A stretch of 64,000 nucleotides of DNA, taken from positions 248,001 to 312,000 of the forward strand of contig JAMXDE010000056.1 of the NCBI GenBank assembly GCA_026770025.1, written 5' to 3'. Both the position numbers and the translations under genes were made by a program. Numbering within the stretch: the first letter of the stretch is position 1; each line of letters starts with the position of its first letter. Of the stretch, positions 1,710 to 56,682 are shown in pieces. The notes below the pieces were generated by a model. The model was given only the letters and a program-made list of their open reading frames with translations. It had not been told where the DNA came from and did not search any database. The DNA comes from Craspedostauros australis. Lineage: Eukaryota; Bacillariophyta; Bacillariophyceae; Mastogloiales; Achnanthaceae.

Positions 1710-2173
1710 TTGCCTGCGACGCCAGTGGATCAGTTACGCACAACAGGTGTCGATCCAAAGGGATTCGGGCAAGAGAACAGGAATCCGGACGAAAGGTGGA
1801 TAGAGACGAGACGGGAGAAAGAGACATCTCACCGAGTCCAGCCGCAAGGGGCGGCGAGTGCCAAAGCCAAATCAACAATACCGGCGAGCAACAAAAAAAA
1901 AAAAAAAAAAAACGGGAGAAAGGGACCAAGAGAACAGAGAACGGAGACGGTAACAATAACAGGAGACTACAAAAAGGACAACAGCAACAAGAACTACAAC
2001 AACAAGAATTACAACAATAATAATCACAACAACAACAACAACAATAACAACAGAAGCCAGAGGTAATAATAGCAGCAAGAGGGATAACGTCACCGATACG
2101 TAACCCGTGCAGCGAGCCAAAAGGCAGAACTCATCGACACGCCAGCAACGGAAGGAGCTGAGACGCCGAGAAC
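1710..2173 (+). repeat. A-rich spacer between LINE ORFs with 20-A run and AAC/CAA microsatellite
   Basis: The 464 bases between the ORF1 stop and the ORF2 ATG are strongly purine- and A-rich. There is an uninterrupted run of 20 A at 1893-1912 and AAC/CAA/AAT triplets over about 1953-2055. One frame (1710-2066) is open but has no ATG and encodes only Lys- and Asn-rich low-complexity sequence, so I do not call it a gene. The spacer is long for a LINE inter-ORF region. It could be an element-specific spacer or an internal entry region for ORF2 translation; nothing in the sequence decides this. Confidence 0.7.
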
Positions 2174-5100
2174 ATGAGTAACCAAGTCGGGATCCCGGCA
2201 GAGGGGGAGACAAGTAGACTAAACGATGCTTGTGGCGACGTGATGGACTCGAAGACGGAGAATGAAGTCAGAGTCGTATTTCAGAACGTGGCACAGATCC
2301 CTCTATACGCATATCAACAGAAGAATGAGGAAATCATAGACTTCATCCGACGGTCGAAACTCGATGTGCTAGCGATGGCGGAGACAAACTTGAGATGGAA
2401 CCAAGTGCGCCCCCACGATCAATGGGAAGAACGAGTGCGCGGTAAAGTCAAACGATCCAAACATATATTCTCCTACAACATCCACGAACAAGGGCGCGAA
2501 CCAAGGCTGTATGGAGGAACAGGCATTGTTCTCACAGAGCAGATGGCGGCAAGAACTTTTCAGTATGGAGTTGATGGTAGTGGCATGGGGAGATGGTCCT
2601 GGTGTAAGATAGAAGGGAAAAGGCACAAGACTGTTAGAGTGGTGGCGGCATACAGGCCGTGCAAATCCACCGTCGGCGACACCACAGTGTGGAGCCAGCA
2701 GGTGCGAGTGCTGAGTACACAGGGACGACAAGATAACCCCCATGAGGCATGGATTCAGGATCTACAGGAACTAGTGCGTAGGTGGAAAGGGGACGGGGAG
2801 TCGATCGTGGTAGGCGTGGACCTAAACGAGGATGCAGACCAAGGACAGACGGCACAGGCGCTACGCGCGGTGGGACTCAAGAATTCGGTGTTCGACCATA
2901 TTGGAGAGCAGTCACGCCGATCCACCCAACAGCGGAATCTGACAGACACTCCTATTGACGCAATCTTTGTGTCTGAAGGACTTGACTTGGTCCGAGCCGG
3001 ATACGCAGCGTTTGGAGATGCCATTCCGTCGGACCATCGAGCAGTCTGGATCGATCTGAGTTTTGGTCAAGTTCTGGGAGCTGGAGTACAGCGAGTGCAA
3101 TCTTCACAGCCTCGGCGGCTGGTTCTCAGCAACCCGAAGGTAGTGAGAAAGTACAACGACGCGGTGCTTGAAGAATACGGGAAACACCGAATCCATCAGA
3201 GGGCTACGAAACTACTTGCGAAGGCGAAGGCGCAAGGATGGGAGCTCAATGCGGCTCAGCGCAGAGAATATGACGGCCTGATGACCCAAGTTAACCAGAT
3301 CCGAAGACATGCAGAGAAGAGGAGTAGGAAGTTGACTATGGGTGAAGTCTCGTGGTCTCCTGAGGTGCAGCATGCCCGCAACCAAGTCCGACACTGGAGC
3401 ATTGAAGTCAAGCACTGGAAAGGGGTGAAAACCAGCTCATCCCTAAGGAAACGTGTCAGGGCGCAGGCAGGGTGCGACGAAGCCACATCGCTGGAAGAAG
3501 CGATGGCTGAGCAAACGAAGGCGTACAAGTCCTATTACATCGTCAAAAAGGAACATCAACGAGCTCGGCAAGAGCATCTCGTTGAACTGGCGAGATTGCG
3601 ACACGACAACCATGAGCAAGACTACGAGACTGCTATCAAAACTCTCCTGAACCGGGAACGGCAGCGGGAACAGGCCGGAAGGCTTCGTGCTGTGTTTGGC
3701 AAAGGAAAGGCGATGACCACCAAAGTCCTTTTCACTGACGAGGATGGAGTAGTACACGAGTGCACGGAACAGTGTGATATTGTGGAGGCGTGTATCGTGG
3801 AGAACAAACGACGGTTCTCGCAGGCGCGAGATACCCCTTGCATGTCAGGTCGGGGAAGGCAGGTGATGGACAAGGTCTGGAACCAGGACACAGCGGCTGA
3901 TCTTTTTAGTGCTAATGGGAGCGTCACAACATACGATAATCCTGTCTGGCGGGACCTTATGCAAGCGTTGGAGCCAGTGGAGTGTGACGTGGACGAGCTC
4001 ACAGTCAAGGAACACGTGAAGGCGTGGAAAAAACAAACTGAGCTCACCAACTCCGAGCCAAGTAATCCACACTTTGGGCACTACAAGTCGGCGGTATGGG
4101 ATGAGACTCTTGCGGAGGTGGACATGGCTATGCGTGAAATACCGTATCAAACAGGCCATTCACCGGCAGAGTGGCAACGTGTCACGGATGTGGAGATCCT
4201 GAAAAAGGCGCAAGTGTTTAACATTGAGAAGATGAGAACCATACAACTGATGGATGCTCAATTCAACCTCAATAACAAGAGGCTGGGACGACAAATGATG
4301 GCCACCGCAGAAGAGCGCGGGTGGTTGTCCGAGTTTCAGTTTGGGAGCAGGAAGGGTCGATCGGCCATCAGCGCTGCACTCAACAAGAGAGTGAGCATTG
4401 ACATTGGCAAACAAAAGAAGGTGCCAATCTGGTTTTGCTCCAACGATGCGAAGTCGTGTTACGACCGCATAGTTCCCAATTTTGCGGCGACCGTAATGAT
4501 TGCAGCAGGAGCCAACCCGTCAGCAACAAGATGTATGTTCCGAACTCTTCGAGATGCCGAGCATCGCATTAGCACGGCCTACGGAGTTTCGAAGCGGTCC
4601 TACAGCAGTGGAATCGACTGTTGCATGCATGGCATAGGACAAGGGAACGGAGCAGGACCTGCGATTTGGGCTGTCATCAGCTCGGTAATGTTCAAAGCCA
4701 TGGAGAAGAGGGGCCACAAACAGACCATTGCATACCCAAGCAGCGAAGGGTCCTTCGATATTCTGGGGTCTGCGTTTGTGGATGGCACCGATCTGGTCGT
4801 GTTGGGTCGAGACGCGATGGCGACGGCAGAGAACTTCGCAGAAATGGTGCATGACTGGAGCGAGCTGCTACGAGTTACGGGAGGAGCAATTGTCCCAGAG
4901 AAATCAGCGTGGTGGTCTATGTTTCCCCAGTTTGAAAACGGTCAGTGGCGATGGAAGGACGGGACGGAGAGCGAGGGGATAGCCATCAAGGACGGGGACG
5001 GGGAGCGCCGAGACGTTCCGCGCCGACCCCTGGAGCAGCCATTGTTCACACTCGGAGTGTTCCTGTCATTCGATGAGAGCGAGGAGCAGCAGATCCAAGT

Positions 5101-7648
5101 GCTCCGAAAGAAGGCGGAAGATTTTGCCGGCAAAATGAGGCGATCCCAGCTTTCCCAGGAGGACGCGCGGTGTGCTCTCGTGCTTCGGTTCATCAAATCA
5201 ATCGAATATGTGATGGGGATAACCCAGCTCACGGCGGCCCAATGGCGAAGGATTATGGCACCGGCGTTGCTGGCGGCACTACCGCAGATGGGATGCTCCA
5301 GAACATTCCCCAGAGACCTGGTCTACGCCCCAGTTTCGCTCGGAGGACTCGGGGTTCCCAATCCGGTGCACCGCCAACTAGTGCAGCAGATACAGCTGGC
5401 GTTTGAGGAAGTGCATGGGGATACACCGACGGGCCGCATGTTGACATGTTCTATCCAAGCTGTCAAGGCAGAGTTGGGAGTGGGTGGTTCCTTGTTTTCG
5501 TATCCGTTCGACAGAGTGCACCAATGTGTAACCCCATGTTGGGTGAAAGGCCTGTGGAGGCAACTACACGACACAGGTGTGAATGTCATTGAGACCACGG
5601 AGGCCCCCACCTTACAACGCGAAGGAGATGAATTCCTGATGAACCGGTGGATTAGAGACGGGAAGAAAGGTGCTGAGCTCTACCACTTGAACATGTGCCG
5701 GATGAAGCTGGGGGTTGCCAGAATGTCGGATATCGTGGAAGCGTCGGGAGTGTCGTTGGCGTCAGAGGTGTTGGAAGGCGTGAGTGCGCCAACTCAAGGG
5801 AGTCAGTGGGCCAACAGACCGGCTGATCTGCCTAGTGGGTGGTGGAGGGAATGGAGACGGTGGTGCAAGAGTCTGTGCTACCGCGGACGACTGCTTCTGA
5901 CGACTCTTGGCCGGTGGTACGAGAATGACGGGACATGGCAGTGGTGGAGGTCGGCGTTGACGAATGAGATCTTTGATTCTCATGCCGATCCAATACGAGT
6001 GTTTGTGCCGGTACGGCAACACAGCAGGCGGCTGAAGTCTTACAGACTGCGAGGGACGACACCGGAGCTTCCGGATCGAGTGAATCGAGTGGTGGTGGCG
6101 GTTACCGAACGGGGGATTACATGGGATGGGCGAATTGGCTTGGAACGTGAGCCTGACGAACCCGCGATACCATACGATCCGGTTGAAGACCTCGGTGGCG
6201 ATGCCACATGGGATCGATTGCTGACGGCAGCACGCAACCACACCCTGCTGCTGGTGAGTGATGGGTCGTTCAAGGCGGCTCGTGGGACCTCTTGCTCTAT
6301 TATGTTCGACGAGGTCACACAGCAACACGTGGCGTGCAACACTTTTGTCCCAGGGCCAGCATCGGTTCACAGTTCGTACAGAAGCGAACTCGCAGGAGTG
6401 TGGGCGTCCCTCGAGATGCTGGATATGATACCAGGCCTCGACGAAGGGTGCTCGGTTACCATAGCCCTCGATGGGTTGCAAGCTCTCCGCCAGGCTCAGG
6501 AAAGCTTTGTGCGGCCCAGTAAAAAGGACTGGGATATCCTTGTGGAGATCCATCGGCTGAAAAAGAGAATTCGTGCCAATCTGAAATGGGAGTGGGTGCG
6601 CGGCCATCAAGACGATACGGGTAAGACCCTGTCCATGCTTGAGAGGCTGAACGTCGAATGCGACAAGCGAGCTAAGGCCTTCTGGGAGGTAACAGCCTCT
6701 CGAAGGAGGGTTCGACGCTGGAAATCGGTGACACAACGGTGGACGCTTGAGATCAGCGGGGAGCACTTTTCGCACGTTGGACAGTCGGAGATATACAAGA
6801 CTCTTCAGTCCACGGCGACTTTGGCGTATTGGGTCAAGAAGTTCGGCTGGAGCATGGATATCGCTCGGGAAGTTGATTGGGAGGGCTACCAAGGCTCGAG
6901 AGCCGCGAAGAAAAACCGGGAAGTGGCGAAGTTTGTGACCAAGTGGTCGTCCGGGTTTGTGGGCGTGGGTCGCAAGATGAAGCAAATGGGACAGCAGGAC
7001 AGCGCGAAGTGTAACTTTTGCGGGTCTGAGGAAACCACACAACATGTCCTGAGATGCGGTGAACATGAGGCCGAGTGGAGTCAGGTGACCCAGGAGCTGT
7101 TTGACAGAATGCTGGCCATTGGTACGGCACCAAGGCTAGTGGCGAACATGCGCGTTGGGTTGGTCCGTTGGCGACGGCGTCAGGAGGTGGCAGGCATCCA
7201 AAAAGGCATCGGGTGGTATCCGTTGATGCTGGGATTCTTCCACAAGGATTGGCGACGACAACAAGCCCAGTGGATGAAGAGTCACGAGTGTCGATATCAT
7301 GACGACTTGGCGTGGATGAAGGAGGTGGTGCGTTGGGTTTGGAAAGTGCCATGGGGAGTCTGGTTGGCGCGCAATGCGAAGGTACATGACGCAGACCAAC
7401 ACCCATCGCTTGCGGATCTTCGGAGGCAGGTGCGGAGGTTGACTGGTGGTGTCAGCCAGGACATGACAGAGGCGGAGGTGGTGCTCCTTCGTGAGGGGCA
7501 CCAGATGGAATACGCAGCGGAGTCGCAGATGCGGCAATGGATACTTGACGTGACGGCAGTTCATGCAAGAGTGTCTGCCCGGCGACGGGCGCGCACCATG
7601 CAGAACGAGAGGCAGCTCATGAGTAGTTGGCTCGGCCTGACGGGTTGA
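2174..7648 (+). CDS. LINE ORF2: endonuclease, reverse transcriptase, RNase H polyprotein
   Basis: A 1,824-residue protein that would nick target DNA and copy the element RNA into the genome. Residues about 30-290 form an apurinic-type endonuclease, with QN near the start, the AETN glutamate, VGVDLNEDA and the terminal SDH. The reverse transcriptase spans about 560-960, with motif A NDAKSCYDR near 760, motif B GIGQGNGAGP near 820 and motif C FVDGTD at 868-873. RNase H lies at about 1360-1490 (SDGS, SELAG, ALDG, HQDD). A C-x2-C-x7-H-x4-C knuckle lies near 1614. The ORF has no internal stop. Motif C normally reads F/Y-V/A-D-D; here the second catalytic Asp (residue 871) is Gly (GGC at 4784-4786), one base from GAC. 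The copy therefore looks recent in reading frame but probably has a dead polymerase. Confidence 0.92.
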   Translation: MSNQVGIPAEGETSRLNDACGDVMDSKTENEVRVVFQNVAQIPLYAYQQKNEEIIDFIRRSKLDVLAMAETNLRWNQVRPHDQWEERVRGKVKRSKHIFSYNIHEQGREPRLYGGTGIVLTEQMAARTFQYGVDGSGMGRWSWCKIEGKRHKTVRVVAAYRPCKSTVGDTTVWSQQVRVLSTQGRQDNPHEAWIQDLQELVRRWKGDGESIVVGVDLNEDADQGQTAQALRAVGLKNSVFDHIGEQSRRSTQQRNLTDTPIDAIFVSEGLDLVRAGYAAFGDAIPSDHRAVWIDLSFGQVLGAGVQRVQSSQPRRLVLSNPKVVRKYNDAVLEEYGKHRIHQRATKLLAKAKAQGWELNAAQRREYDGLMTQVNQIRRHAEKRSRKLTMGEVSWSPEVQHARNQVRHWSIEVKHWKGVKTSSSLRKRVRAQAGCDEATSLEEAMAEQTKAYKSYYIVKKEHQRARQEHLVELARLRHDNHEQDYETAIKTLLNRERQREQAGRLRAVFGKGKAMTTKVLFTDEDGVVHECTEQCDIVEACIVENKRRFSQARDTPCMSGRGRQVMDKVWNQDTAADLFSANGSVTTYDNPVWRDLMQALEPVECDVDELTVKEHVKAWKKQTELTNSEPSNPHFGHYKSAVWDETLAEVDMAMREIPYQTGHSPAEWQRVTDVEILKKAQVFNIEKMRTIQLMDAQFNLNNKRLGRQMMATAEERGWLSEFQFGSRKGRSAISAALNKRVSIDIGKQKKVPIWFCSNDAKSCYDRIVPNFAATVMIAAGANPSATRCMFRTLRDAEHRISTAYGVSKRSYSSGIDCCMHGIGQGNGAGPAIWAVISSVMFKAMEKRGHKQTIAYPSSEGSFDILGSAFVDGTDLVVLGRDAMATAENFAEMVHDWSELLRVTGGAIVPEKSAWWSMFPQFENGQWRWKDGTESEGIAIKDGDGERRDVPRRPLEQPLFTLGVFLSFDESEEQQIQVLRKKAEDFAGKMRRSQLSQEDARCALVLRFIKSIEYVMGITQLTAAQWRRIMAPALLAALPQMGCSRTFPRDLVYAPVSLGGLGVPNPVHRQLVQQIQLAFEEVHGDTPTGRMLTCSIQAVKAELGVGGSLFSYPFDRVHQCVTPCWVKGLWRQLHDTGVNVIETTEAPTLQREGDEFLMNRWIRDGKKGAELYHLNMCRMKLGVARMSDIVEASGVSLASEVLEGVSAPTQGSQWANRPADLPSGWWREWRRWCKSLCYRGRLLLTTLGRWYENDGTWQWWRSALTNEIFDSHADPIRVFVPVRQHSRRLKSYRLRGTTPELPDRVNRVVVAVTERGITWDGRIGLEREPDEPAIPYDPVEDLGGDATWDRLLTAARNHTLLLVSDGSFKAARGTSCSIMFDEVTQQHVACNTFVPGPASVHSSYRSELAGVWASLEMLDMIPGLDEGCSVTIALDGLQALRQAQESFVRPSKKDWDILVEIHRLKKRIRANLKWEWVRGHQDDTGKTLSMLERLNVECDKRAKAFWEVTASRRRVRRWKSVTQRWTLEISGEHFSHVGQSEIYKTLQSTATLAYWVKKFGWSMDIAREVDWEGYQGSRAAKKNREVAKFVTKWSSGFVGVGRKMKQMGQQDSAKCNFCGSEETTQHVLRCGEHEAEWSQVTQELFDRMLAIGTAPRLVANMRVGLVRWRRRQEVAGIQKGIGWYPLMLGFFHKDWRRQQAQWMKSHECRYHDDLAWMKEVVRWVWKVPWGVWLARNAKVHDADQHPSLADLRRQVRRLTGGVSQDMTEAEVVLLREGHQMEYAAESQMRQWILDVTAVHARVSARRRARTMQNERQLMSSWLGLTG

Positions 7649-7916: not shown

Positions 7917-10180
7917 TCATGCGGCTGGCCCGATGATCTGGTAGCCAATGGTGGCCGTGGCACTGGGAGGGCTGGAAAAAGATCCAAGATTCTTGCAGGA
8001 TTTTGGTCCCAGACAGCTGCTGAGGATGATGGCATCCTTCAAAACCTCTTCGCAGGAACTATCACTTGCACATGAGTCCAGGGTGATGGTGATGTCGCTC
8101 CTGAGAGTCCAACCGAGAGTTCCTCGGCGGCAGGCCCCGCCCACAGCACCGCATCTCGTGGATAGGCTTGCGGCGTTCGCAGTGAGAAGGATGCCATCGC
8201 CTTCGAGAGCAGTGAGGATGGCTGCGATTGCTTGGGGGTCATTCTTGATGCGATCAAATCGTACCTGCGCCTGTTGCTGCGACGTCCGGCTGCCTTGGTC
8301 GTCATCGCATCCGAAGATGCTTTTCACGAACCTGTCCTTGTTCGTTGGGAGAGACTCGTTGTCGTTGACGAATTGTGCGCATGTGCCCACATCATCATCG
8401 CAGAGGACGACTTGTCTGGAGGTGAAGCCTGCAGTAACCTCCCCAGCCTCATTCAAGCAAAGGGTCTGCAGGGTGGTCTTGTTGATGGTTGGGGAGTTTG
8501 TTGGAACAAAAGTTGACAGATCGGATGGCTGCTCTGTCGGAATCATCGTTGGGGTATCGCTTGCCAGCGGAGAAGGGGGCGAAAGTTGGGCAATCTGTTG
8601 GGCGTTGGTCTTTGTTGATGCAGAATTGATCGACTCTTTTCACTGGTTGGGTCGCCATCGACGTCTTTGGGGCAGGCGACGGCAGCATCGTAGATAATGA
8701 AGACTTCGTCGCTGTCGCAGTTGGTTTTTGTCATGCATTCGTAGCATGCGCCGCTGCTGTCACAGCCATAGTCTGGCACAATGATGTCAGTTGTCACTGA
8801 GTCACCGAATCCCAATCCCGGGCAAGCGTAGGCTGCGGCACAGGCATTGTCGCCGATGCTCAAGCTGCCCTGAATCTTCGCAGGTGATGGCAACGATGTG
8901 CATGTGCAGTCGTAGTAACCGCTCGCATGTGCTGCGGTGCATGCATATTCACCAAGGCATGCGTTGAACCCAATTCTGACGTGGCTCTGGGAACGGCTGG
9001 GCCCGTACTGTTCAACGCGGTAGCCAACGCTCGCACAGGCGTAGGGTCCAACGCAGGCGCCGCTTTGTATGATGGCGTCTCTGTAGGAGTATGTGCCAGC
9101 AAGGACGCAGGAAAGATAATCAGTGCAGGCCAGTTGACCAATGAAGGTGACACCGTATGTTGGGTGAGGACCATAGCAATTGGAAACATAAAGAGAGTTC
9201 ATGCCGGCGCATACCCCTTTGCTGGTACAGGATGAAGCCAGGACCAATGTGTTTCGTCCCATCCTGTCGCAAGATCCAGACCCAATGCAGGCAGTGGTGG
9301 CAATGGTCATGAAACTGTAACCGTCGGCGCTGGTACAGTGATACTCCTCTGCACAGCTTGGAGCCCCAGCGTCCTGGCACATGTAGTAGATGTCCTCGCC
9401 ACCGAGAGCTGTGAGCAGAGTGGTGCCGGCGGCGGACAATAGCTTCAGCTCCTCAGCTAGCAAGGGGCTGGACGCATATCGGTTGAATAGCTTGTGCGCA
9501 TCCCCCTCGGTCAAGAGGCCAGCGCATGCAAAGTAATTCTGCAATCCTGGTGTGCTTCGAACAGCAGTGACGGCCTCGCGGTACGATGTCTTGGATGGAT
9601 TGCAGATGATGGTCTTCGGCTCGGATGCCTCCGGCGGAAAGCATGGCGGCGCAACATCTGGCTCGCAGGCCACGGAGATGCTGGAATCAAATGCAAACGA
9701 GATGGTTGTCGGTGCAGATGTAGGCCCTGATGTCGGCATGCTGGTTGCTCCGCCTGTTGGCTGGTCGGTCGGTGATGAGGTAGGCCTCAGGGTTGGATTG
9801 CTGGTCGGCAAGGCAACTGGCCGCCCAGTTGGCCTTGAAGTTGGTGCCCCAGTTGGTGGCAAGGTTGGTGTAGAAGTCGGTGTTGTCGTCATTATTCAGG
9901 CCAACGCAGTTGGTGCCAATGTAGGAGAGCTGGTAGGCGAACTGGTTGGTGCCACACTGGGATTGCTGCTTGGATTGTTGGACGGTGCTCCCGTCTGTTT
10001 GTTACCCTTGACGTTCTTTGGAATGAAACCGCCGTCGCCCTTCAGCAGTCTGGTTGCCTGCATCGCAACATGAAGTTCGTTGGTTGGGTCAATCAATCTA
10101 TGGCCGCAAAGGATGGCATCGATCGTCTTGCATTCGGCGAGCAAGATCGCCGTGATGGTAACTGCCTTGAAGTTGAGCAT
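7917..10180 (-). CDS. Secreted Cys-rich repeat protein with Pro-Thr linkers (probable intron; in-frame stop to resolve)
   Basis: The protein starts at 10180 with a hydrophobic leader (MLNFKAVTITAILLAEC), then Pro-Thr-Ser linkers, then a large Cys-rich part with repeats of the form IG-x3-C-x-G-x2-AC (for example IGDNACAAAYACPG). Such repeats are common in secreted heterokont proteins of unknown role. Two places need explaining. First, the frame changes near 8600. A GT-AG intron at 8534-8643 (110 bases) joins GDPT to KQPSDLSTFVPT, continues the linker and leads in frame to the stop at 7917. Second, a TGA at 9896-9898 interrupts the linker. It is removed if an in-frame 72-base GT-AG intron (9834-9905) is spliced, but that segment itself reads as perfect PT repeats. 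With the 110-base intron alone the span is 718 codons including the stop, the TGA among them. The alternatives are a recent nonsense allele, a sequencing error or a decaying gene. Confidence 0.6.
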
Positions 10181-11077: not shown

Positions 11078-11206
11078 TCAACTGAATTGAACAGCATTCA
11101 ACTGCATTGAACTGCATTGAACAGCAGTAGGTGAAGGACGCAGGACGCTCCCTCATACAATCAATACTATCTGTGTGCTACTTCTACCCCTCGAGGAAAC
11201 GACACG

Positions 11207-14102
11207 ATGTCCCGCTGGTTGTCATCCGTGAACACGCTGCTGACCCAGCTCGACGGTCAGGCGGAGATCGCCGTGGAGGAGCATCTGCTGCAGACGAACG
11301 CCGCGGATGGCGACGGAGACGATGATGATGGTTTGCATTCTGGCGGTGACGCAGCGTTGGACAGCATCCTGGCCAAACGGGGTCTCTCCTTCATGGATGG
11401 CGACGAGGATGGCGATGTCGATGCTGCTGATGAGAATGCTGATGTCGATGCTGGCATTAACGCTAACACAGACGATGGGTGGGATGCCTCCGCCTCCGAC
11501 TTTGACTTTGACAACGACGACCAAGGCGCCAACGACACAACTGCTGACAAGCCTGTCGATGTCTCGACACAGGACTCCCAAACCCAAATCCAAGTTGAAG
11601 GAATGGCGACTCAGCCCGCGGAGACCGCGGAGGCTGATAAGGAGCTGAATGTAGGCGAGGATCAAGGTGAACTGCAAAGTGAACAACAACAAAGTGCAAA
11701 TGGAACTGCGGAAGCCTCCAACAACAACAGCAACAACAACAGCAACAACAAAGTTTCGGAAGGCGATCAAAGGGATTCAGACCCATCGCAGGCAGGCGAC
11801 GTTGAAAAGGAAGATGGTGCTGGGGACGTAGATGCTTCGACTGGCTTTGACCAGAATCAGAAAGGCGCATCTGCAACAAACACGAGCAAACCAGTTCCAC
11901 CAACGCCGCCGCCTGGCCCACCAGCAGCCAGGACGGTCGTGACAGAGACGAAGCAAAAGGCTCAGCCCAAACCATCTTCTCCAGCGCCGGCATTCTCAAC
12001 GCCGCCCCCATCCAAGGCGATGCCCAAGAACCCAATGCGTCCGCCTTCGTCGCACAAGCAAACCCCCACAGGAACCGCCAACATGATCGCCAAGTCGGAC
12101 TTTGTGCAAGTGCAGAAGGAGGCCAGGACGCTGCGTCGGCACGTCGTCTCCCTCAACAGCCAGCTCGAGGCTGCGGAATCGGAACTCAAGGCGCAGCGCG
12201 GGGAGCTCGAACAGGCCGCGGACAGGATGGAGAAGGACAGAACGAAGAACAAGAAGCAGCTCGAGGACATGAAGCAGCTGCATGCGAAGCAAATGGCCGC
12301 AAAGCAGAAGCAGCATGAGGACATACTCATGGAACGCCAGGCCAAGCTGGAACAGGAACAGCAGCAGTACCGAATGCACATTGCTGATCTGGAATCCAGG
12401 CGACAGCAAGAGGGTGGCGATTGGAACAAGGAACTGACATCGGCGGTGGACAAGCACAGGGAATCCGAGGCAAAGATCACATCCCTGGAAGACGAGAGGT
12501 TGATCTTGCTCTCGCAGATATCAACCTTGCAGGCACAGCAGGAGACGCTGGGCTCAAGACTCGAATCTCTCACGCAAACCAGCGACAACGCGATGGACCG
12601 CGAACGAGAGGCGGAGGAACGGCTCGACGCCATGCTTACGCAGCATGCCCACCAGATCGCACAGCGTCAGGCACGCGAGGCGGAGTTGGAAAAGACCGTT
12701 CATGAGCTGGGTGCTGCGCTGGTGGCAGCCAGGGCATCCACCGGCGGTGCTTCCGCCTCGGCCCTAGCCGATCCTTCCAAAGCCAACGGAGTATCCGGTG
12801 AGGGTGACACTGCAGCGGGAGATCCCGTTGTAGACAGTTCCATGCTCAAGTCAAAAGTGCAAACGCTCGAGCAGGATTTGTCCAATGCCCATTCCCAGCT
12901 GGACTTGGAGAGAGAGAGGGTACGCCATCTGTGCTGCGCGTTGCGCTTTTCGAGCAATGTCCCGTCATCTGCCTGTGTTGATCTCGTCTTGATTTGTATT
13001 GGTGTGGTGTGGTGTGGCGTGGTGGCTTTCTTTCGCCAGGTCCGTTTTTGCTCACACCATGATCACTCTCACATTCATACTCATGCAACTGATCACTGAT
13101 TTCCATTCGACCGTTTCGATCTCAATACCAACTGCAATTGTAACTGCCAACGTCAACGCCAACATGACTGCGATTATATCCGAACCGCACATCCAACTAT
13201 TATTGAACGATCAGAGCCAAGCACTGCACAAGCAACTCAAGGACCTGTCGAAGGAGACGACGCAGGAGGCATCTGCCGTGCATGCGAGACAAATCCAGAA
13301 CGACCGACAAATCGCTGATCTCAACCTCACCGTTTCCAGACTCCAAGCCGATCTGCGGCATGCCAGCAACGACGTCGAAGGGCAGGCCGCGGAAGCCGAA
13401 GCATCGACGATGAGCAGGGAGAATGGACTGGCTAAAGAGGTCCAGGTCCTTTCCGAGGAGGTCCTCCGTCTGCGCACGCAAATGGGCAACCAGAACAGCG
13501 AAGTGATCACCTTGAAAAATCGCGTCAAATCCGCCAACGAGCGTGCCAACCAGGCAGAGAATGACCTGGCCATGGCACTTGCCAACTCAAAGAACATGTC
13601 GGACTCCGCCTACGACACCATGGAGCGGGATTCGGCGCCGATGAGCGGAACGGGCCTCAGCCGACGCCGTCGCAACGCCAACTCGTCCAGCATCCGATCG
13701 GCGATCCAGCTCCATCCTGGGCACGGCGACAGAGCGGAGCAAATCGGAAAGGCGATCGATGTCGTCGATGATTTCGCCGTCTCCACAGGAAAGTACCTAC
13801 GGCGCAATCCATTGGCGCGCGCTGGGTTCCTCATGTACCTCGTCCTGATTCACACGTGGTCATTCGTGCTGCTCTTCTTCCACGCGCATTCCTTCGAGAA
13901 CATACACGGAGACTTCGGAGCTGGAGTGGGCGCGGCGCATGGACCCCATGCGCTCATGGAGCACAGCGAGAATGTCGTCAAGCTCCCACCGGTGACGCCG
14001 GAGGCTGAGCCTGCCGCAGCGGCCGACAAGATCAAAGAAGCCAAGCAAGCAGCACCCAAGGTCGATGCGCAAGCAGCTGCTGATGATGCGAAGAAGCGTT
14101 AA
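11207..14102 (+). CDS. Golgin-84-like Golgi tethering coiled-coil protein
   Basis: Two exons, 11207-12919 and 13215-14102, are joined by a 295-base GT-AG intron (AGG|GTACGC ... GATCAG|AGC, phase 0) into 866 residues. The N-terminus MSRWLSSVNTLLTQLDGQAE resembles the short amphipathic start of golgin-84. A long acidic, Asn/Gln-rich disordered region follows to about residue 290, then a Gln/Glu/Lys-rich coiled coil over about 300-770. The C-terminus is diagnostic: a basic patch (SRRRRNANSSSIRSAI), then RRNPLARAGFLMYLVLIHTW and a single tail-anchor helix, as in GOLGA5. The family captures COPI vesicles at the Golgi rim with its coiled coil facing the cytosol. The N-terminal 250 residues are unusually acidic and low-complexity. 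Frame and phase are unbroken across the splice. Confidence 0.78.
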
Positions 14103-14503: not shown

Positions 14504-17500
14504 CTAGATGATGCTATCTCCCCCAGGCGCAAGGTTTTCCATCTCTGGGTCGGTACCTTCCCGCAGCTGCCGCCGCAGGTACTCCAGGCTCGGCCGCGTG
14601 CTGGAGCTACCGTAGTCGATCTCCGACATCAACCGGACGGATTCGCTGCTCCTGCTCTTGGTCCGGAGGAAGGGCATCAATTTGCCCTTGCGGCCGTGCG
14701 ATTGAGAAATCTTATGATCGATGCCCATCCCTTGCGACAGCCGCGTTCCTTTCGTGCCTTTCTTTCTGGTGAGTCCGTCAGACACCATCGTGGACGTTCT
14801 CCACCTACGCCGATACCACACTATGGCGGCGCAGCAGAGAATCATGATGGAGCTCATTGCAACGATGATCCACATGCCGGACTTGGCCATGAGCATGCCG
14901 AACTTCTGATGTCCTGTCATGGATGGCTTCATTGGTCGACCTGCCTGAGGCGGCAGGACGGTTGAAGCGGGTGCCTGACACGCATCCAGGTCACCCAGCT
15001 TGCCAATCCAAGCGCATTTGATCCCCAACGGTTCGTAGGTCTCTGCCAGCATGAAGAACAGCTGGCGACCGGTTGTGGAAGTGACCGCGCCGTCCGTTTC
15101 GTCGTCGCTAGCAGCATCAATGTTCAGCATGCGATCGATGGTCTGTGCTGTGGACGGCGCGATACTGTGAATGATCGGAACCATCATTCTCGAAAAGATG
15201 TGGGCCCGGATCATTTCAATTTCCACTGGGATGTTCTTCACGTGAGACGATGAAGATGTTGGAGTGGAAGAGGCGAGCGACACGGCGACGGTGGACCTCA
15301 GCATCCCTTGGATCATGGGGACCATGAGGGTGGAGCTGACTTGCTCCGTCGCACGTTGGAGGCCTTCGCAGTTGCGCGCCTTGGCGATGTTCCTTCCCAT
15401 CTCCAGCAACTTGATGAGCTTGCCATTGAGCTGAGCGTTGCTCTTGTTGGCGACCTGCCCGCATGTGCCAAAGTCTTCGCACAGATCCTGAACCAGAGTG
15501 TACCACATGTGCCCATCTGATTTGGAACCGCCTTGTTCGGGCCCTTCCAAGTGACCGATCAGAATCGCAGCAGCATGGTCCCATGCAACCATGGAGTCGT
15601 ATGACACGCCGTTGCCTTCGCATCGTTCCACGGATTGGTACAGGTTACGCAGCGCATCGAAGAAGACCGTGTATACCTGCAAACTTCTGGTAATGATCTC
15701 TCGTCGTTCTGAATTCTTCCAGGGCGCCGTCGCGTCCAGTGCGGACCTGATCATTTGCCTCATCGGATCTTGGGCCTTGAAGTACTCGTCGTACTGGACG
15801 AAGTGTGGCACGATCCGCAGCCCGTTCGTATTGGCTGTCAAGTGATGCAAACTTCGACTGGCGCCATCAACCTTTCCATTTTCCAATGATGACAACAAAG
15901 GACCATGATGGCCAACATCGTAGATTTCGCTTGCGGCTCTGTAGGCCTTCATTTCGAGCATGGTGTCCAACTCAGCAGCATCTAGATCCAAATGTGAAAT
16001 CTGGGCCAGAATGACAACGGGGATGGAGAATGCCGTATATCATTCGTAGTGTTTTTTGTTTTTCCAATGCGGGTAAATGACATGAAACGAAGTGAAATAG
16101 AATGTGATGGAATGAAATGATGGTGAGCAGGGGTTTGAGCTGGCCGTGCACATTGAATGAATGTGATTAGATTTGGCTGATTGCCGTTCATGATCACTCG
16201 CTCTCCCAAAACAAGCAAGGATTGCATTCGCAGCCCGTGTAGTCTTCATCAACAACAGCATGGCGTGGGGAGCGACGCAATAAGGTGAAAATCAACGCAA
16301 TTGATGCGCGCAACGTATGCTCGCAACATGCAGCAGAACATCCAGCTCTGTGTTGCACATCACACGCTGCTTACCGTCTGCACGTTGCTGATCGGGCGAT
16401 ACCCAGCCAAGGAAACCAGCGGGTCTGCGTTGTGGCAGTGCAACCGGTCGGTTCCAACAGGACCAACCAAAAGATGGGCCCCAATCTGTTTGCAGGCCAA
16501 CCCTAGGCAAGGCAAGGAGGACTGTATCATGGCAAAGATCTTTCCGAGATCAGACACTTCGTAGTTCCCGCCCAACAGTAGCTCCTTCAGTTGGCTGAAT
16601 GTGTCGTCTCCGCATGTCCTGATCAAGGGGACGAACGCATGCGAGTACAGCTGTACTGCGTGACTATTGCCGACTCGAAGGGAATGGATGAGCCCACGGA
16701 CGATGGGGACCGTCATGTCGGATGTGATCTTTTGCACAGCGTCATGCAACTCGAGAACACGGGCGTATGACGAAGAGGTGCAGTTCGCCATTGAGTCCAA
16801 GACCAGCCAGGCTTCTCCGACGTGAGCGAGCAATTCTTTGCTGGTGCCAGCGTCCGACTTGCCAATGGTTTCGAAGTGGCGGGCATTCGTTTCGGATACG
16901 AAGTGCATGGACTCGCCGGTCCTTTTCGAATTTCCCACCACGGCACCACCGAACCACAGATCGATGGCATCAAGCAACACATCAGCCGGGTTGTCATCGG
17001 AATCGGTATTCTGACCGTCCGTTTCAGTGCATGCGTGAAGCACGTTGTGTAGTCGGTGGATGATGTACATCCACATGTTCAAAATGATGCTCGCCTCCGA
17101 AGTCAAAACAGCAGAATCTCTCGATTTGAACATCTGCTGGATGACTTTGTCGGCATAGTTCCGGCTGGCTGCCATTCCAATCCCTGTTTTGGTTCCGAAA
17201 GTGTCCAAGAACTTCATGAACACAGGCTCGCCGAGCATATTGGATGTTTCGTCCGTCGAAAGCGTTTGCAGAGTTGGGTAATTTTCCGTGGAATCCGGGA
17301 TGACGATTCCCAGCTCGTAGATCCTGGCGGCTTCGGGGATGTTGCCATGGTTGAGGCTGACCCTCATCGTCTTGACGTCTCTTGCCAGCTTCTTCGACTT
17401 GGCAGAGTGAGAAACAAGACTACCTCCCAAGTGTTCCATGCTGGATACCAGCTGCAGCTCCGAGAGGCACACCGGACCGAATCGGGCATTGCGATATTCG

Positions 17501-20500
17501 CCGATCTGCTCGCAATCAACTGCAAGGTCGTGGATGCCTTGAGCCATCGCACGGAAGGTGATTTCTGTGTCGACATTGTGCTTCGCTGCTGTGATGCTTG
17601 GAAAAGCCAGTTCGATCAATGCCGCATTCGTGCTGTTGACGATGCTCATCTCCGGTAGGATGGACCGCGACAGAGTGTAACCGGACGAAGTAGCCCTTTT
17701 CTGTGCCATCGAGTTGAAGTTCGACCCGTGAAGGATAGCAGCATAGTGCCACGTTGCTTGAATCATCGGGACGTACAGCTTGCGCGGGAGGACGTAGTCG
17801 AGCATGTCCTCCAGTGAACCGCATTGCGACTTCTCGATGTATTCCTTGGCGGTTTCGAATGCCTTGAATATCTCGGTGTTCACCATGGCATGGCCAGAGG
17901 CGTCGCAAGTGCCAAAGCTCTGGCAGTGCTCGTCGCCGAGCGAGTGCATCGAAGAACCTTGCAACGGCATCACGGAGCTCTCCATGCCGTCGGTTCCTTC
18001 CAGTTGCTTCGATCGGATCTCGTTGCCAGATAGTCCCATGTACAGTTCTTCTGCAAAGGCTAGTTTCGTATGAGCCGAATCCTGGAATCCATTCCAGCAC
18101 GAGTGCACCGCTCCCTTGATCAATGCCATCGCTGCCATGGGTGTGATCAGCGATTGGAACGTTCGAGTGGAAACGTCCGACGTTGTCTGACCTGGGAGGT
18201 TGGAATTGCGCCCATCCTGCTCCATCAGATCGAGCATCATTTCGTGAGCGTACATGTCACTTCCGAAATACTGGGAGAATGCATCGAAGTGGGTGACATT
18301 CGCGCGGCCCGGCAACGTGGCCAAATCCTTCAAGGTGACGAAGAATCCATTCGAGAGCAAACCGCCATGGCCGTGCTCGTAGCAATCCAGAGCCGCACGA
18401 GGTGATTTTGCTCTGAAGAAGACGTCGATTCGTTTGACGTCTAGCTCCATGCGAGCGTACGCGGTTTGGTTGTCGATTGAAGTGCTAGGCAAGGACTTGA
18501 TGACCATATGCGGCTCATCGGAGCACAGTTGATCCACAAACATGCGCAGTCCAGCGTTGGCAGAGCTTGAATTGGTCACAGCGATATCCTGGCACGTTAT
18601 CTCCAAGCAATCCAGACAGCTTCGAAGGGCTGACATGACCTTCTTCGATAGCCTTGTGGCGCTGAAGTTGACGAAGAATGTTTGGCTTAGCTCGTCGAAT
18701 GCAGCCTTGTTGCATGCGGCGATATACGGGAATATGGCGACTGAATAGAGCTCAACGCGCCATGTGTCATCCAGCGCAACCGCATGCATCAGATGTTGCA
18801 TCAATGGGATCGTCAGAGACTTGATGATCTGATTCGTCTTCGCGCGCATACTGGAAGGAGCGAGTGCGTCCACATCGCACGTCTGTGCCAACGATTTAAG
18901 GTCATTGAACTGGAGCGCAACTTCTGAATTCAATGGAGCCTCGTCACCCGTGTGTCCAAACATTGTGGATGCCGTCTCTATCATCGAGTAGAGCAGCCAT
19001 CCGTTGGCCAACGCCCCGCTATCGACGCCCTTTCCGATCCACAGTGCGACGGCTGCGTCGATATGATGAAGAGGTTCGTTGCCATCGATGCATGCACGGA
19101 CGGCTGCATGGAGCTTGTGCGTGAGCATCATCCACACGTTGAGCGCAACGCTGGCTTCTGCCGCGAATTTCGTGTCATTTCCTGACCGGAGTGCTTCGCT
19201 AACAATCTCATCTGCGAAGGCGTACGAGCGGTCTGTGGAGAAATCGTCTTCGCTGTACAGACCGAATTTGAAGATGTTGAACACCGGGTCGTCGCTCATA
19301 TAGAACTGCGCTCCCACGCTGAGCGATGATAGACTGCGGAAAGTGACCTCGTCGGCAAATCCAGATGCGGTCGCGTGTTTGCCCTCGCGGTAGATGGAAC
19401 GAGCTTCGTCGGTGCTGGCTGCATTCGTCATGTCGCGCACATCCAGAGCGAACGATGCGAATCCGTTTGCAATTTGGGCATTTGAAAACTGAAACCTGCT
19501 GTAATACAACGCAGGTTGGCCATCGGTCGTCTCCGATACCTGTGTTAGGGAGACCGGATTATTCGCCGGGTTGGAGAGATCGGCAATGGCATCCGTGGTG
19601 TTGGCGTTGGCGTTGTTTTCGAGGACCGGTGAGAACGGAGTTGTGAATGCCGTCGTCGGTTCCAGCGTCGATGTATCGATGGACACCGTTTGCGTTGGCG
19701 TTGCGGTCGGGAGGCGCGTTGGAGAGGGCGTCGGAGAACGTGTCTGAAAACGTGTCGGAGAATTCGTTGGCGATGATGACTTTGTCACGGCCGGCTTCAG
19801 TGATGCCTTGGAAGTGGAGTGGTGAAACAAAGTCGACGAACGATGCAGCCGCGTCGGAACCTGCGTTGGGACAAGCGATGGTGTATCTGATGGGATGAAG
19901 GATGGTTGATCTGTTGCGCTGTTGGGCGCTGATGCCTCCGAAGCCGATGCGGATGAGGGTGGTGATAACGTGTCATTCTGTGACTGCAGGGTGGCGGAAC
20001 CAGTGGAAACCGCTGCTGATGTTGCATTCGACGGTCCCATGGATGGTCCCATGGATGGTTCCTGGTTTGATGAACTGGCCGTAGTCATGGTGGTTGGCGG
20101 CGAGGTGTTCACGTTTGCATCAGCCTCGTCTATCCCTGTTCCATCTTCGCCCGCAGCCGAAGTGTTTGGATCCCAGACGCATCCTTCATTGCAGACCGTG
20201 TTTTCCGGATCCAGTTCCCAGTTCCCAATGCCCTTGCAGTCGATCGCAAGCTTCGTCACGGAGGTTTGCAAACTGCTGACGATGGCTGAAGTTGGTCTGT
20301 ACGTCGATTGTTGTCCCGCATCCATCATCCAGCTCTTCTGCAGCGTGGCGATCGCGCTGGAATCAACCTGCTTGATGATGGGCTGGATGCTCATGGCGAA
20401 AGCGTGGGCCGCTCCTTCGACGTGATCCTTCGAATCATTCAGAGGGTTTTCGGACAGGTCGGCAAAGGCAATGTATCCTTGAAACAGTGGAATGTGTAGT

Positions 20501-23042
20501 AGGGGGAGAATATCTCGCAAGGTTGATGCTTGTACCGTTGCGCAGTCCTCTTGGTGGAGACGCTCTCGGTTGCTTTGGAACAGCTCGATCAGTTGGAGGT
20601 TGGAGTTCGACTGCCTGTGCTCAACATCGACCGCGCACGTTCCAAAAGCCTTGCACAGTTCCTTCGATGTTGCGTACAGATTTTGGCCGAAGCTCGATCC
20701 GTTGGTGCTCTCCATGGAACCCACGTAGAATGCCACGGCCTCGTCCCATGCGCGCACGCTGGATTCGACTTCGTTGTTGAGGCACTTTTCGATGGAGGTC
20801 GAAATTGAGGCGGTGATGGACATCTGCAGCAACACAGAGACTGCCAATCCTGTAATAAGTTCGGAGGCGTAAAGGTGGGAGATTTTGTTGAACGGCGCGT
20901 TTCGTTGCAATGCGTTGGTGATGGTGTAGTCCGCATTTAGCAGCATGCTGCTGTCGAACATGGCTTTGTACGGGCCAAGGTGCGACTGTCGCGTGGCCAG
21001 CTTGCGCGTGGCAAGTTCGTGGAGCGAATGCGGCGCGGTCGCTGTTGTGCCGTACAGGTACACATCCAGCGCAGCGTCCATCGCGTCTCTGCCAATGAGA
21101 ATCCCCAGGTGTCTTACATCGCGATCGATTGTCGACGATGAGACGAACGATTGCTCTGGAGATGTGTACCCGCCAAGCGTGATGGACGTGGTTGGTTCGT
21201 CGTTGCATTGGCCAGCTAGGTCAGACGCGTGTGGGTGTTCGTTGTAGCTTCCAACATCAGCGCATCGGACGTGAAAGCACGTGGCGTACGTGTTCTGCAG
21301 CGCTTGGATGGTATTCTTCTTTTCTTCATCGCCGCTCAGGGTGTTGAGCGCTCCCATGTTGAGATAGTCTTGGAAGGTCTGTGGATCGCATGCCATGATC
21401 CGTGGGATGATGCTAAGGCCGTAAATGTTGATGAAGTCGGGCATGTTCTCACTCTCCTTGTTGGCGATATGGTGGATCATATTTTGCAAGAGAGGGACCG
21501 ACATGAAACCGATCGTCTCGAGAATGGAGTCGCGGAAACTTGATATACTCACAGTAATGGCAGCGGTGACGGTGGTCTCCGTGGTCGCCAAAATATCATG
21601 GTCGCCGTTGCTGCTGCTGCAAACTTGTCCGGCGCTGAGCTGCTGCTGCAGTTGGTTGAATTGCTGGATGATTCGTGTGTTCATCTTTGCTTCTCCAGAG
21701 TTGTCATCATTCGTCGAAACGCTGGCGTCCGAATCGATTTGGTTGAATCGAGCGCCGGCCTCATGCGCCAAGTTGTACAACGAGTATCCATCCTGCGGCA
21801 GCCCGATCCAGAGTGCGGCTGATCGGTCCAGCGCCTCGGTTGCAGTTTGCGGGTCATGATCCTGCGTGCACGCCGTGTACATTGACCAGAGCTCATGCAC
21901 AGTCGCCATCCACACGTTGAGTATTTGTATCCCTTCGATCACGATGTTGGGGACATCGATGATGAAGAGATCACGGACGATGGCATCTGCATATTCCTCG
22001 ACCGGCTGGCCTGCGAACTGTCCCATTTCTTGTTCCCCATATCGCTGTCCAAGGTCGTTGAAGGCGTACAGGTAGAGATTGTAGATGAGATCATCTCGCA
22101 TCATTTCCCCCGATGCTGTGCTTAGATCTGCATACGACATTGATTCTCTGCGCAATGCATCAGAGAATGCGATTGATCGCGCATTCGTATTGTGCGAGTC
22201 GAATGATTGGTGGCACACATGCGTGAAAGAGAGCACAAAGTCGAGTGTTGTTTTGGATGATGAGTCAGTGCCAGTCAGCATTGACGATCAATGGCCAGAA
22301 CTTTCGAGTGCTCCACTCTTTTCTCTCTACATAGTGGAGGGAGCAAGTAGAGTGGGGCGGAGCAGAATGGGGTGGAGTCGAGCATGAAAAATAGCTTGCA
22401 ACAGGAGAGCGGCAGTATAGCGGGGGGCGCCGATCAATTCACAAGCCATCTGAAACACGATAGCCTTACCTTTCCTCTGTTTGTTGATTCCGTATTATGT
22501 ACCCATTACGTCCCTGTTGCGTGTTGCGTGTTGAGAGCGAGGGCGCCGGCATGAGCACGATAATTTGAAAAGTGGAGTGAGAGTGAGAGTGAGAGTGGGA
22601 ATTGCGATAAGAGAAGAGTGGAGTGGAGTGCAGTGCAGTGTAGTGTGAGGGCGTTTGTGGTCGAGAGATACGAGAAGAAAGCAATTGATTGGACGTTGCC
22701 AATCAGTCCATTTCCATCCATGCCAGGAGGTATCACCGCGAGGATTTGGCCTCTGTTCTTGGAGCTTACATTGTTATATATCTCCATCTGAGCATTCGCG
22801 TCGCTGGCTTCGTCTTTTATCTGCCTCCCATCGAGGGAAAGATCGAGAATGCCTTGGACATCGGTGGATGCGACGTAACGCCCACCGAGCATCGATGTCC
22901 CGAATGCAGCCTCTGATTCTGATGCAGTTTGTGGTGCCGCTGCTGTTGTGTTTCCTGATGCAGCTGCTGATACTGACGCCAATGGCAACAGGATACACGG
23001 CGCTAGCATGGCATGCCACAGTGCCATCTTCGACTGCTTCAT
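14504..23042 (-). CDS. Giant six-lobe cell-surface protein, FEA1/phytotransferrin-like (4 exons, 2,528 aa)
   Basis: Exons are 22770-23042, 22470-22513, 16375-22147 and 14504-16000. All junctions are GT-AG and phases 0, 2 and 0 agree, giving 7,587 coding bases. Residues 1-30 contain a signal peptide (ATG at 23042; MALWHAMLAP core). Six related helical lobes follow in A/B pairs. A lobes carry ALWIG-type motifs near 221, 1142 and 1837. B lobes carry an AVAFYVGS- or AAILIGHLEG-type motif and a Cys pair in FGTC near 606, 1516 and 2206. Each lobe ends with an IPLxQ-type helix. A Pro/Thr/Ser linker with GPSMGPSMGPS lies at about 770-950. A membrane helix (about 2402-2424) and a basic, Ser-rich cytosolic tail close the protein. 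The motif set and architecture match what I recall of FEA1 and phytotransferrin iron-binding proteins (inference). Six lobes are far more than the usual one or two. The role may be iron capture at the surface; adhesion is possible. Confidence 0.8.
22470..22513 (-). other. 44-base micro-exon of the giant lobe gene
   Basis: Bounded by CAACAG| and |GTAAGG. It encodes GRNGYIIRNQQTEE plus two bases of an Arg codon, turning phase 0 after IYNN into phase 2 before ESMSYADLS. The joined product IYNNGRN...ERESMSYADLS lines up with IYSQGRH...DERLSLADLS of the paralogue at 62.9 kb, which supports the call. Confidence 0.8.
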
Positions 23043-55153: not shown

Positions 55154-56639
55154 GGTGCTGTTGCTGCTGCTGATGCTGCTCCTTCGCAGATCTCTCTCCT
55201 GTATGGCTCTCCGATCGGAGGATTCCCTTTGGTCTATTGGACAATGAGAGGAAGTGGTGCCCCTTGCTTGCCTTTCCTTTCCTTTCTTGTTCGCCTTCTG
55301 CTCCCGATCTTGCTCCTCTCTGATCTCTTGCTTTGGTCTTGTTGTTGGCGTTGTTGTTGGTTTTGGCTTTGCCTCCAACAAGGCGCACCAGGATGGCGGG
55401 AAGCGAAAGCGGCGAATTGGATTCGTGTTGTTCCCTTGCGTTTCCTTGTTTTGCGGTGTCCTTTTGGCGTTGTGCTGTTACGGTCACTTTCCTTTTCGTT
55501 GTGCTTCGTGTCGAACGAGTCGTGATGCCCAAAGCGAGCATTTCGATCGTGTTTCCGAAAACAGGAATCAACCTTGTCTTGGTTCGGCAATACTTTATGA
55601 ATATATTTTAATCAACCGCAGCTTCCAAATTCCAGTCCCGATTTCATTTGGAGGGTACACAATACTGTTTGAGATATCCCGTTCAAGGTATCGTGTTTGT
55701 GAAACGCACATATCCACGATTTGGGCTCAGAATTCGCCATGGATGAGTCAGATGGGAAGGAACAACAATCAGCCATCACCAAATGCACTCACACGCACGA
55801 GGACGGATGATGGCCAACAGCGAAGACTGTTGTTGGAACAATGGTGGTGTTGTCATGAAACTGAGAACTTTCGAATGTGTTCTATTGTCCTTCAGAGTGC
55901 ACTGTGTGATGTGTCATCGATGCGCAGTTTGATGTGCTGACGCAGTTTGTGGTGTTGTGCACGTCATCGATAGGTGTTGCAAGTGAGGCCTCATCCATTC
56001 CTTCCGCCGCGATTATAGCCTCGCTCGCATCGTAGTGCCGCAGTGTGTGATATCCCTTGCACGACGGCGCTTCGAGATGATGGGGTGGCCACTGCCCATG
56101 CCAGACCAATCAAAACGAGAAAGAAGGGACACGTGATGAGTTTGTTGTGCCTCTCCAGTATGTTCGTATCTCTCTCTCTGTGAACTCTGACAGGAGATGA
56201 CCGTTCGTGCGTCTCCGATGACGACACATGCCACGACCGCAACATCAGTGGTGCGCTGTTCACATGATGTGTGCTGTGCAATTGACGTCACAGACGACTG
56301 TGATGTATGATGGACGAAGCGCGACGCATGATGATGATGATGGATCACTCGTGGGTGGCTATGTTCTCATTCGTATTCGTACTATGTTGTGGTGGAGTCC
56401 ACATCATCCATCTTCTGACTCGGTCGTCCATCGCAACCATCGCAGCAGCGTGATGGATTCTCACGAGCTATGATCGAAATCGCAGCGCAAAGCGTGGTCG
56501 TTATCGTGGAAACGAACACATCAATTCATGGTGAGACACAGCATCACACATCGCATAGCCAACACCATCCGCCCCAGCCAGATCCTTCCTCACTTGCTCT
56601 CATAAAACAAACATTGTCTCAACACAAACCACCACCACC

Positions 56640-56671
<32 letters not shown>

Positions 56672-56682
56672 ACTATCCCAAA
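55154..56682. promoter_or_regulatory. 1.5-kb divergent region between SEC1 and the antenna gene
   Basis: Contains the promoters of both divergent genes. A perfect ACA-triplet repeat at 56641-56671 sits just before the antenna gene ATG, in its 5' UTR. Overlapping ORFs at 55234-55940 have no motif. Confidence 0.4.

Follow-up and report, generated by a model that had tools for sequence, protein, structure and literature searches.

A divergent six-lobe FEA1/ISIP2A-type protein of the diatom Craspedostauros australis as a candidate surface receptor for ferric iron

The locus described here raises the question of what a giant protein built of six Fea1-like lobes may do for the alga that encodes it. 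Ferric iron uptake in marine algae is driven by Fea1-type proteins, and no explanation for the even-numbered strings of Fea1 domains was found in literature passages on the family. The stretch analysed (the window) comprises 64,000 nucleotides of the Craspedostauros australis genome, positions 248001-312000 of contig C54 in an assembly of 74.8 Mb and 90 contigs, and carries on its minus strand a gene coding for 2,528 amino acids. The product, from a photosynthetic alga, probably belongs to the FEA1/ISIP2A (phytotransferrin) superfamily as a divergent protein with six lobes, and the behaviour of its relatives suggests that it captures ferric iron at the membrane and is then endocytosed. One-lobe and two-lobe forms occur in the genome beside two forms with six lobes, which makes it a natural series for asking what domain multiplication buys and offers a way to spot residues that may bind metal.

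The gene consists of four exons separated by three GT-AG introns (Table 1), with the stop codon at 14506-14504. Re-splicing reproduced to the residue the four-exon, 2,528-residue model proposed in the initial annotation, and every part of the layout described there was recovered: a signal-like N-terminus, three pairs of A and B lobes, a Pro/Thr/Ser linker, a membrane helix and a tail. The six lobes, each of about 330-380 residues, alternate in the order A-B-A-B-A-B and share 15-27% identity. Lobes of one type recognised each other in phmmer searches (E of 8e-11 to 3e-26 among A lobes and 7e-11 to 2e-18 among B lobes, calculated for a set of six); A and B lobes gave no match to each other with phmmer and were aligned by hhalign with a probability of 98.3 and E of 2e-14. 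Two motifs had been ascribed to the B lobes. The Cys pair, C-x5-C ending in FGTC, is present in all three, whereas WDEAVAFYVGS occurs literally in B1 alone; B3 reads WDHAAAILIGH at this site and the motif is gone from B2. The highest hydropathy was found at residues 2406-2424 (2.54), where the peak is followed by a basic stretch and the tail, as in a C-terminal membrane anchor; a segment inside B1 (536-554, 1.84) ranked second and the N-terminus (11-29, 1.76) third.

The relationship to FEA1 was indicated by several comparisons. The NCBIfam model NF038033 (FEA1-related lipoprotein) matched two of the six lobes, B1 with 46.1 bits and B3 with 27 bits, and it also found B1 in a search of the whole genome (E 2.1e-10). 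A profile built from the six window lobes scored Chlamydomonas FEA1 at 16.1 bits, against 3.3 bits for the best of 200 shuffled sequences and -0.8 bits for the highest-scoring of 10 unrelated proteins from the window; the A-lobe profile gave 10.2 bits, with 2.7 for the best shuffle. In hhalign, the six-lobe profile reached FEA1 with a probability of 84.8. The FEA1 query was the published construct sequence (PMC8098128), which itself matches Pfam Fea1 at 7e-152. The window protein is, moreover, homologous over most of its length to a second six-lobe protein that passes the Pfam Fea1 model (29.8% identity and E 0.0 for residues 986-2429; 28.9% and 4e-77 for residues 96-830). Judged by these sequence comparisons, common descent with the FEA1/ISIP2A superfamily holds, and the homology put forward in the initial annotation was thus borne out.

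The genome was searched with PF07692 and with family proteins, and the best candidates were scored, which places the number of further Fea1-type genes at at least five: the six-lobe paralogue, a two-lobe gene on contig C9 and three single-lobe genes. The paralogue lies on the plus strand of C54 at about 310864-318208, so that it begins in the last 1.2 kb of the window and extends past its right end; the two giant genes are about 40 kb apart and are transcribed in diverging directions. A two-exon model with one intron yields 2,242 amino acids and includes a membrane helix and a tail. Four stretches of the paralogue match Pfam Fea1 (5.1e-27, 95.3 bits). It shares with the window protein the order A1-B1-linker-A2-B2-A3-B3-helix-tail, the site of intron 2 and about 30% identity. 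It differs in passing Pfam Fea1, in the absence of introns 1 and 3 from its model, in a Pro/Thr linker that occupies the corresponding site but is shorter, in an acidic dileucine in the tail and in keeping all candidate metal-binding residues (see below) except for a His in place of N70 in A1.

The two-lobe C9 gene, modelled as 726 amino acids, has a hydrophobic end resembling a GPI signal; its B half passes the Pfam Fea1 model (25.8 bits) and its A half fails (14.9 bits). The single-lobe genes are ISIP2A-like, one on contig C6 and two adjoining on C9 near 1.466 and 1.469 Mb. All three fall under the Pfam Fea1 cut-off (7e-5, 5e-4 and no match), and the C6 gene matches NF038033 at 2e-21. In the tandem pair (C9:1464800-1470400), each gene has a C-terminal hydrophobic stretch and a tail, with the N-terminal halves in separate frames. 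Weak NF038033 matches were also noted at C6:1901952-1902218 (E 0.0018) and C45:492796-493098 (E 0.026), which may be distant relatives or chance.

In a tree of 17 lobe rows, the A and B types were split with support of 100/100. The A1 lobes of the two giants were paired, as were their A2 lobes, each at 100/99, and the A3 lobes less surely (85/81). The B3 lobes of both giants grouped with the B lobe of the C9 gene (86/88). The placement of B1 and B2 was weak: window B2 joined paralogue B1 at 86/28, a grouping flagged as long branches meeting, and window B1 stood outside. Window B1, B2 and A3 lay on long branches. Because of this pairing and these branch lengths, we suggest that triplication preceded duplication of the whole gene: an ancestral A/B pair resembling the two-lobe C9 gene would have been triplicated, the six-lobe gene would then have been duplicated whole, and the window copy would have changed faster, chiefly in B1, B2 and A3.

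Conserved residues were determined in a reference set of nine rows, namely FEA1 and eight A or B lobes from outside the window protein, the three single-lobe genes being left out. Residues are numbered as in FEA1 (construct residue + 18), possibly off by one, as the printed construct has 343 residues and 344 would be expected for 19-362. Invariant in all nine rows were D45, Y65, G68, D173, A177, G181, Q253, P291 and C352, and N70 was kept in eight. All six lobes of the window protein keep D45, Y65 and the last shared Cys, four keep D173, and lobe A1 has the whole D45/Y65/N70/D173-type set. The single-lobe genes, read by eye, keep the Asp, the Tyr and the second Asp, with His, His and Phe at position 70. 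By their conservation, the D45/Y65/N70/D173-type residues are candidate metal ligands. Each window lobe retains 26-36 of 40 conserved columns (65-90%), compared with 65-83% in leave-one-out controls, and the lobes look folded and maintained. A pseudogene reading was rejected, as the joined coding sequence has no internal stop and the conserved columns are kept at about the control level.

Surface capture of ferric iron with endocytic release is the best explanation of the protein, judged by its relatives Ot-Fea1 and ISIP2A. In cells, Ot-Fea1 is found loaded with iron; its Fea1 domains are duplicated, and it has a signal peptide and a C-terminal helix (PMC4855317). ISIP2A binds ferric iron in a carbonate-dependent manner and is endocytosed, and a fusion of the N-terminal domain of human transferrin to the ISIP2A anchor can replace it (PMC7676907, PMC7972479). 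By analogy with these characterised relatives, the window protein would stand on the outer face of the plasma membrane, where several of its lobes would bind ferric iron with carbonate as the synergistic anion. The lobe array would raise the local iron-binding capacity, and the tail would lead to endocytosis and subsequent iron release. The best candidates for retained metal sites are A1, A2 and B3; B1 may retain one, and A3 and B2 probably serve as weak sites or as structural lobes. The function of a multi-site iron catcher, put forward in the initial annotation, is plausible.

A number of results weigh against this assignment. Neither the window exons nor any of the six lobes reached Pfam PF07692 Fea1 at E up to 10 with the HMMER filters on (the lobe queries were trimmed by the first 63 residues in A1, 16 in B3, 7 in B1 and 8 in B2). 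The curated cut-off of that model is 25 bits, and by its own rule the window protein is not a Pfam Fea1 member. The Pfam matches that the lobes did give were all sub-threshold and to other families (TPR_IPO11 0.027, UPF0184 0.1, RTC_insert 0.25). In the lobe-by-lobe profile comparison suggested in the initial annotation, similarity to a FEA1 family was thus found for B1 and B3 (NF038033), and similarity to Pfam Fea1 for no lobe. NF038033 did not match the other four lobes, whole exon 3 gave no match when searched against NCBIfam, and the scores of B1 and B3 lie far under the equivalog cut-off of 250 bits. The B-lobe profile alone missed FEA1 (1.5 bits; best shuffle 6.9), as did a profile made from the B lobes of the C9 gene and the paralogue (5.6 bits, with 7.3 for the best shuffle), and hhalign probabilities to FEA1 were weak for A lobes (8.5) and B lobes (0.8) taken separately. 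At the residue level, D173 is lost from A3, where Leu has replaced it and an Asp follows at the next position, and from B2, which has Ala. N70 is lost from five lobes; Asn is found in A1, His in A2 and B3, Thr in B1, Gly in B2 and Val in A3. Of the ten conserved columns with charged or polar residues, lobe A3 keeps half. REXXE-type motifs, which have been reported in Ot-Fea1, show no enrichment in the window protein (3, compared with a shuffled mean of 1.63; this count was reached by 222 of 1000 shuffles). The window tail reads ESVRLM, with no clean counterpart of the acidic dileucine ESPALL of the paralogue, which we take to be an endocytosis motif.

These losses could mean that the protein is a neofunctionalised surface receptor or adhesin that keeps the FEA1 fold and has given up iron binding; iron capture would then fall to the paralogue and the ISIP2A-like genes. 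This alternative, which we regard as possible and rather unlikely, draws on the Pfam results, on the long branches of B1, B2 and A3 and on the changes at N70 and D173. It also draws on the linker, of 216 residues compared with about 40 in the paralogue, and on the number of N-glycosylation sequons (16 in the whole window protein, 4 of them in the linker, compared with 7 in the paralogue). Set against it are the retention of D45, Y65 and the last shared Cys throughout and of D173 in four lobes, and the conserved-column retention, which is close to the control range.

An asymmetric array was also considered, in which the full candidate set (Asp, Tyr, Asn/His, Asp) would be kept by one lobe of each pair, that is A1, A2 and B3, and its partner would have decayed, partly in B1 and clearly in B2 and A3. 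Each pair would then consist of one binding lobe and one structural or regulatory lobe, with all six lobes retained in the paralogue. The residue pattern makes this conceivable, and we think it improbable; if true, one alga would possess a high-capacity receptor and a tuned low-capacity receptor of like architecture.

Four exons and a long linker could arise from two or more adjacent genes wrongly joined, but most of five lobes already lie in the 5.8-kb exon 3, whose open frame of 1,975 codons would arise by chance with a probability of about 10^-34.7 at the local base composition. The paralogue, too, has most of A1, the other five lobes, the helix and the tail in one open frame. Intron 2 agrees in position and phase (2) with the intron in the two-exon model of the paralogue, and intron 3 in position and phase (0) with the intron at the A|B boundary of the two-lobe C9 gene. 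Given this single-frame layout and the introns common to relatives, merged neighbouring genes were rejected and are very unlikely. Intron 1 is peculiar to the window gene, and its removal restores the family motif Y-x-x-G-[KR]-[NH] as IYNN|GRNG across the junction. The joined coding sequence has a third-codon-position GC of 0.65 (exon 3, 0.66; exon 4, 0.69), compared with an intron GC of 0.47-0.51. Exons 1 and 2, both short, show values of 0.52 and 0.29 with no coding-like excess and rest on homology, not on base composition. The positions of the introns likely mark the A/B pair as the repeat unit.

A convergent helical repeat protein unrelated to FEA1, which might be supposed from the failure of Pfam Fea1 and the sub-threshold matches to other families, was rejected as hardly credible in view of the near-full-length homology to the Fea1-positive paralogue, the NF038033 matches and the FEA1 score above shuffled and unrelated proteins.

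The initial annotation had held that known family members have one or two lobes and that six would be a new architecture. This is contradicted both by the second six-lobe protein of the genome and by the literature, according to which Fea1 domains were multiplied independently several times to give even domain numbers of 2 to 10 per protein (Lelandais et al. 2016, PMC4855317), the legend of the figure on domain numbers being worded 'generally detected'. These even numbers fit an A/B pair as the repeat unit. The multi-domain algal proteins resemble the window protein in their even-numbered Fea1-type repeats, and Ot-Fea1 moreover has a signal peptide and a C-terminal membrane helix; the window copy, by contrast, has diverged too far to be recognised by the Pfam model. 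Multi-domain Fea1 proteins are therefore already known. What is new is a divergent member invisible to Pfam Fea1 near a canonical six-lobe paralogue, together with gene-structure evidence pointing to the A/B pair as a repeat unit. Surveys that count Pfam Fea1 matches can overlook giant, divergent members of this kind.

Chlamydomonas FEA1 (UniProt Q9LD42, PF07692), of which a crystal structure has been described (PMC8098128), has in common with most window lobes the residues D45, Y65, G68, D173 and G181. It is periplasmic (PMC8098128) and has one domain, seen as one Pfam stretch, compared with six lobes plus a membrane helix in the window protein. Diatom ISIP2A, a protein of the cell surface, combines a Fea1 domain with an endocytosis motif at its C-terminus (PMC7972479, PMC4855317), and all three single-lobe genes found here share WDEAVA-x-Y-x-GS. 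Unlike the window protein, ISIP2A has one, C-terminal, Fea1 domain (PMC4855317); its carbonate dependence and endocytosis are demonstrated and would apply to the window protein by analogy. The similarity of B1 and B3 to NF038033, a model for prokaryote annotation, is a profile similarity far from equivalog level.

Table 1. Features of the giant gene and its product (window coordinates; residue numbers of the protein in brackets)
Feature	Position	Strand	Remarks
Exon 1	22770..23042	-	ATG, hydrophobic N-terminus (signal-like at about residues 1-27, by eye), start of lobe A1; donor AACAAT|GTAAGC
Intron 1	22514..22769	-	256 nt, phase 0, GT-AG; missing from paralogue model
Exon 2	22470..22513	-	44 nt; carries lobe A1 further, aligned with the other lobes
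Intron 2	22148..22469	-	322 nt, phase 2; matches paralogue intron
Exon 3	16375..22147	-	Single open frame: remainder of A1, B1, linker, A2, B2, A3, start of B3
Intron 3	16001..16374	-	374 nt, phase 0; matches A|B intron of C9 two-lobe gene
Exon 4	14504..16000	-	Lobe B3, membrane helix, tail, stop
Lobe A1 (44-424)	21193..22913	-	Introns 1 and 2 lie within it; paired with A1 of the paralogue at 100/99
Lobe B1 (425-768)	20161..21192	-	NCBIfam NF038033 FEA1_rel_lipo, E 2.8e-12, profile 110-405 of 406
Pro/Thr/Ser-rich linker (769-984)	19513..20160	-	P, T or S at 103 of 216 residues
Lobe A2 (985-1316)	18517..19512	-	Pairs with paralogue A2, support 100/99
Lobe B2 (1317-1670)	17455..18516	-	Without the conserved second Asp
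Lobe A3 (1680-2014)	16423..17427	-	Without the conserved second Asp
Lobe B3 (2015-2380)	14951..16422	-	Split by intron 3; NF038033 E 1.8e-6; groups with paralogue B3 and C9 B lobe, 86/88
Membrane helix (about 2405-2425)	14816..14878	-	Highest hydropathy window of the protein
Cytosolic tail (2426-2528)	14507..14815	-	Ends GDSII; paralogue tail ends GTDII

Searches of other collections returned no convincing or confirmed relatives. Window exon 3 and the paralogue gave no matches among PDB sequences at E up to 10, in a set without the FEA1 structure by sequence; the best E values of the lobe profiles were 0.14 and 0.38, both to unrelated molecules, and the sole match of FEA1 itself was a tailspike (0.061). 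Pattern scans of contigs, which detect close relatives only, were run on genome contigs with a paralogue lobe and the single-lobe-gene alignment, the window lobe not being a query, and gave 19 and 118 pattern matches, none confirmed. On viral contigs, two scans with paralogue lobes gave 0 and 7 pattern matches, the single-lobe alignment 116 and window B1 6, again with none confirmed. No match was found in phage sequences for the paralogue or window exon 3, or in plasmids for a paralogue lobe or window exon 3; a single plasmid match of the C6 gene (E 0.9) was dismissed as chance.

Stretches resembling the linker were detected, at E up to 1, in 12 further open frames of the genome, with E under 1e-3 for two, and a Pfam 'PT' repeat protein is encoded at window 8546-9895. 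Pro/Thr/Ser-type linkers seem to be common in this genome.

Three other features of the window, all on the plus strand, were noted, one of them, a gene for a chlorophyll-binding protein, indicating a photosynthetic alga. At 2162-7648, an intact frame of 1,828 amino acids corresponds to a non-LTR retrotransposon, with an endonuclease domain (5.8e-9) and a reverse transcriptase match just under the Pfam cut-off (1.2e-6). In the region 11135-14102, a frame for a long coiled-coil protein precedes one whose product has a membrane helix at its C-terminus. By reading, the pair appears golgin-like; Pfam matched the first frame only to ATG16, below threshold (8.6e-4). A chlorophyll a/b-binding-type protein (1.4e-38) is encoded at 56419-57465.

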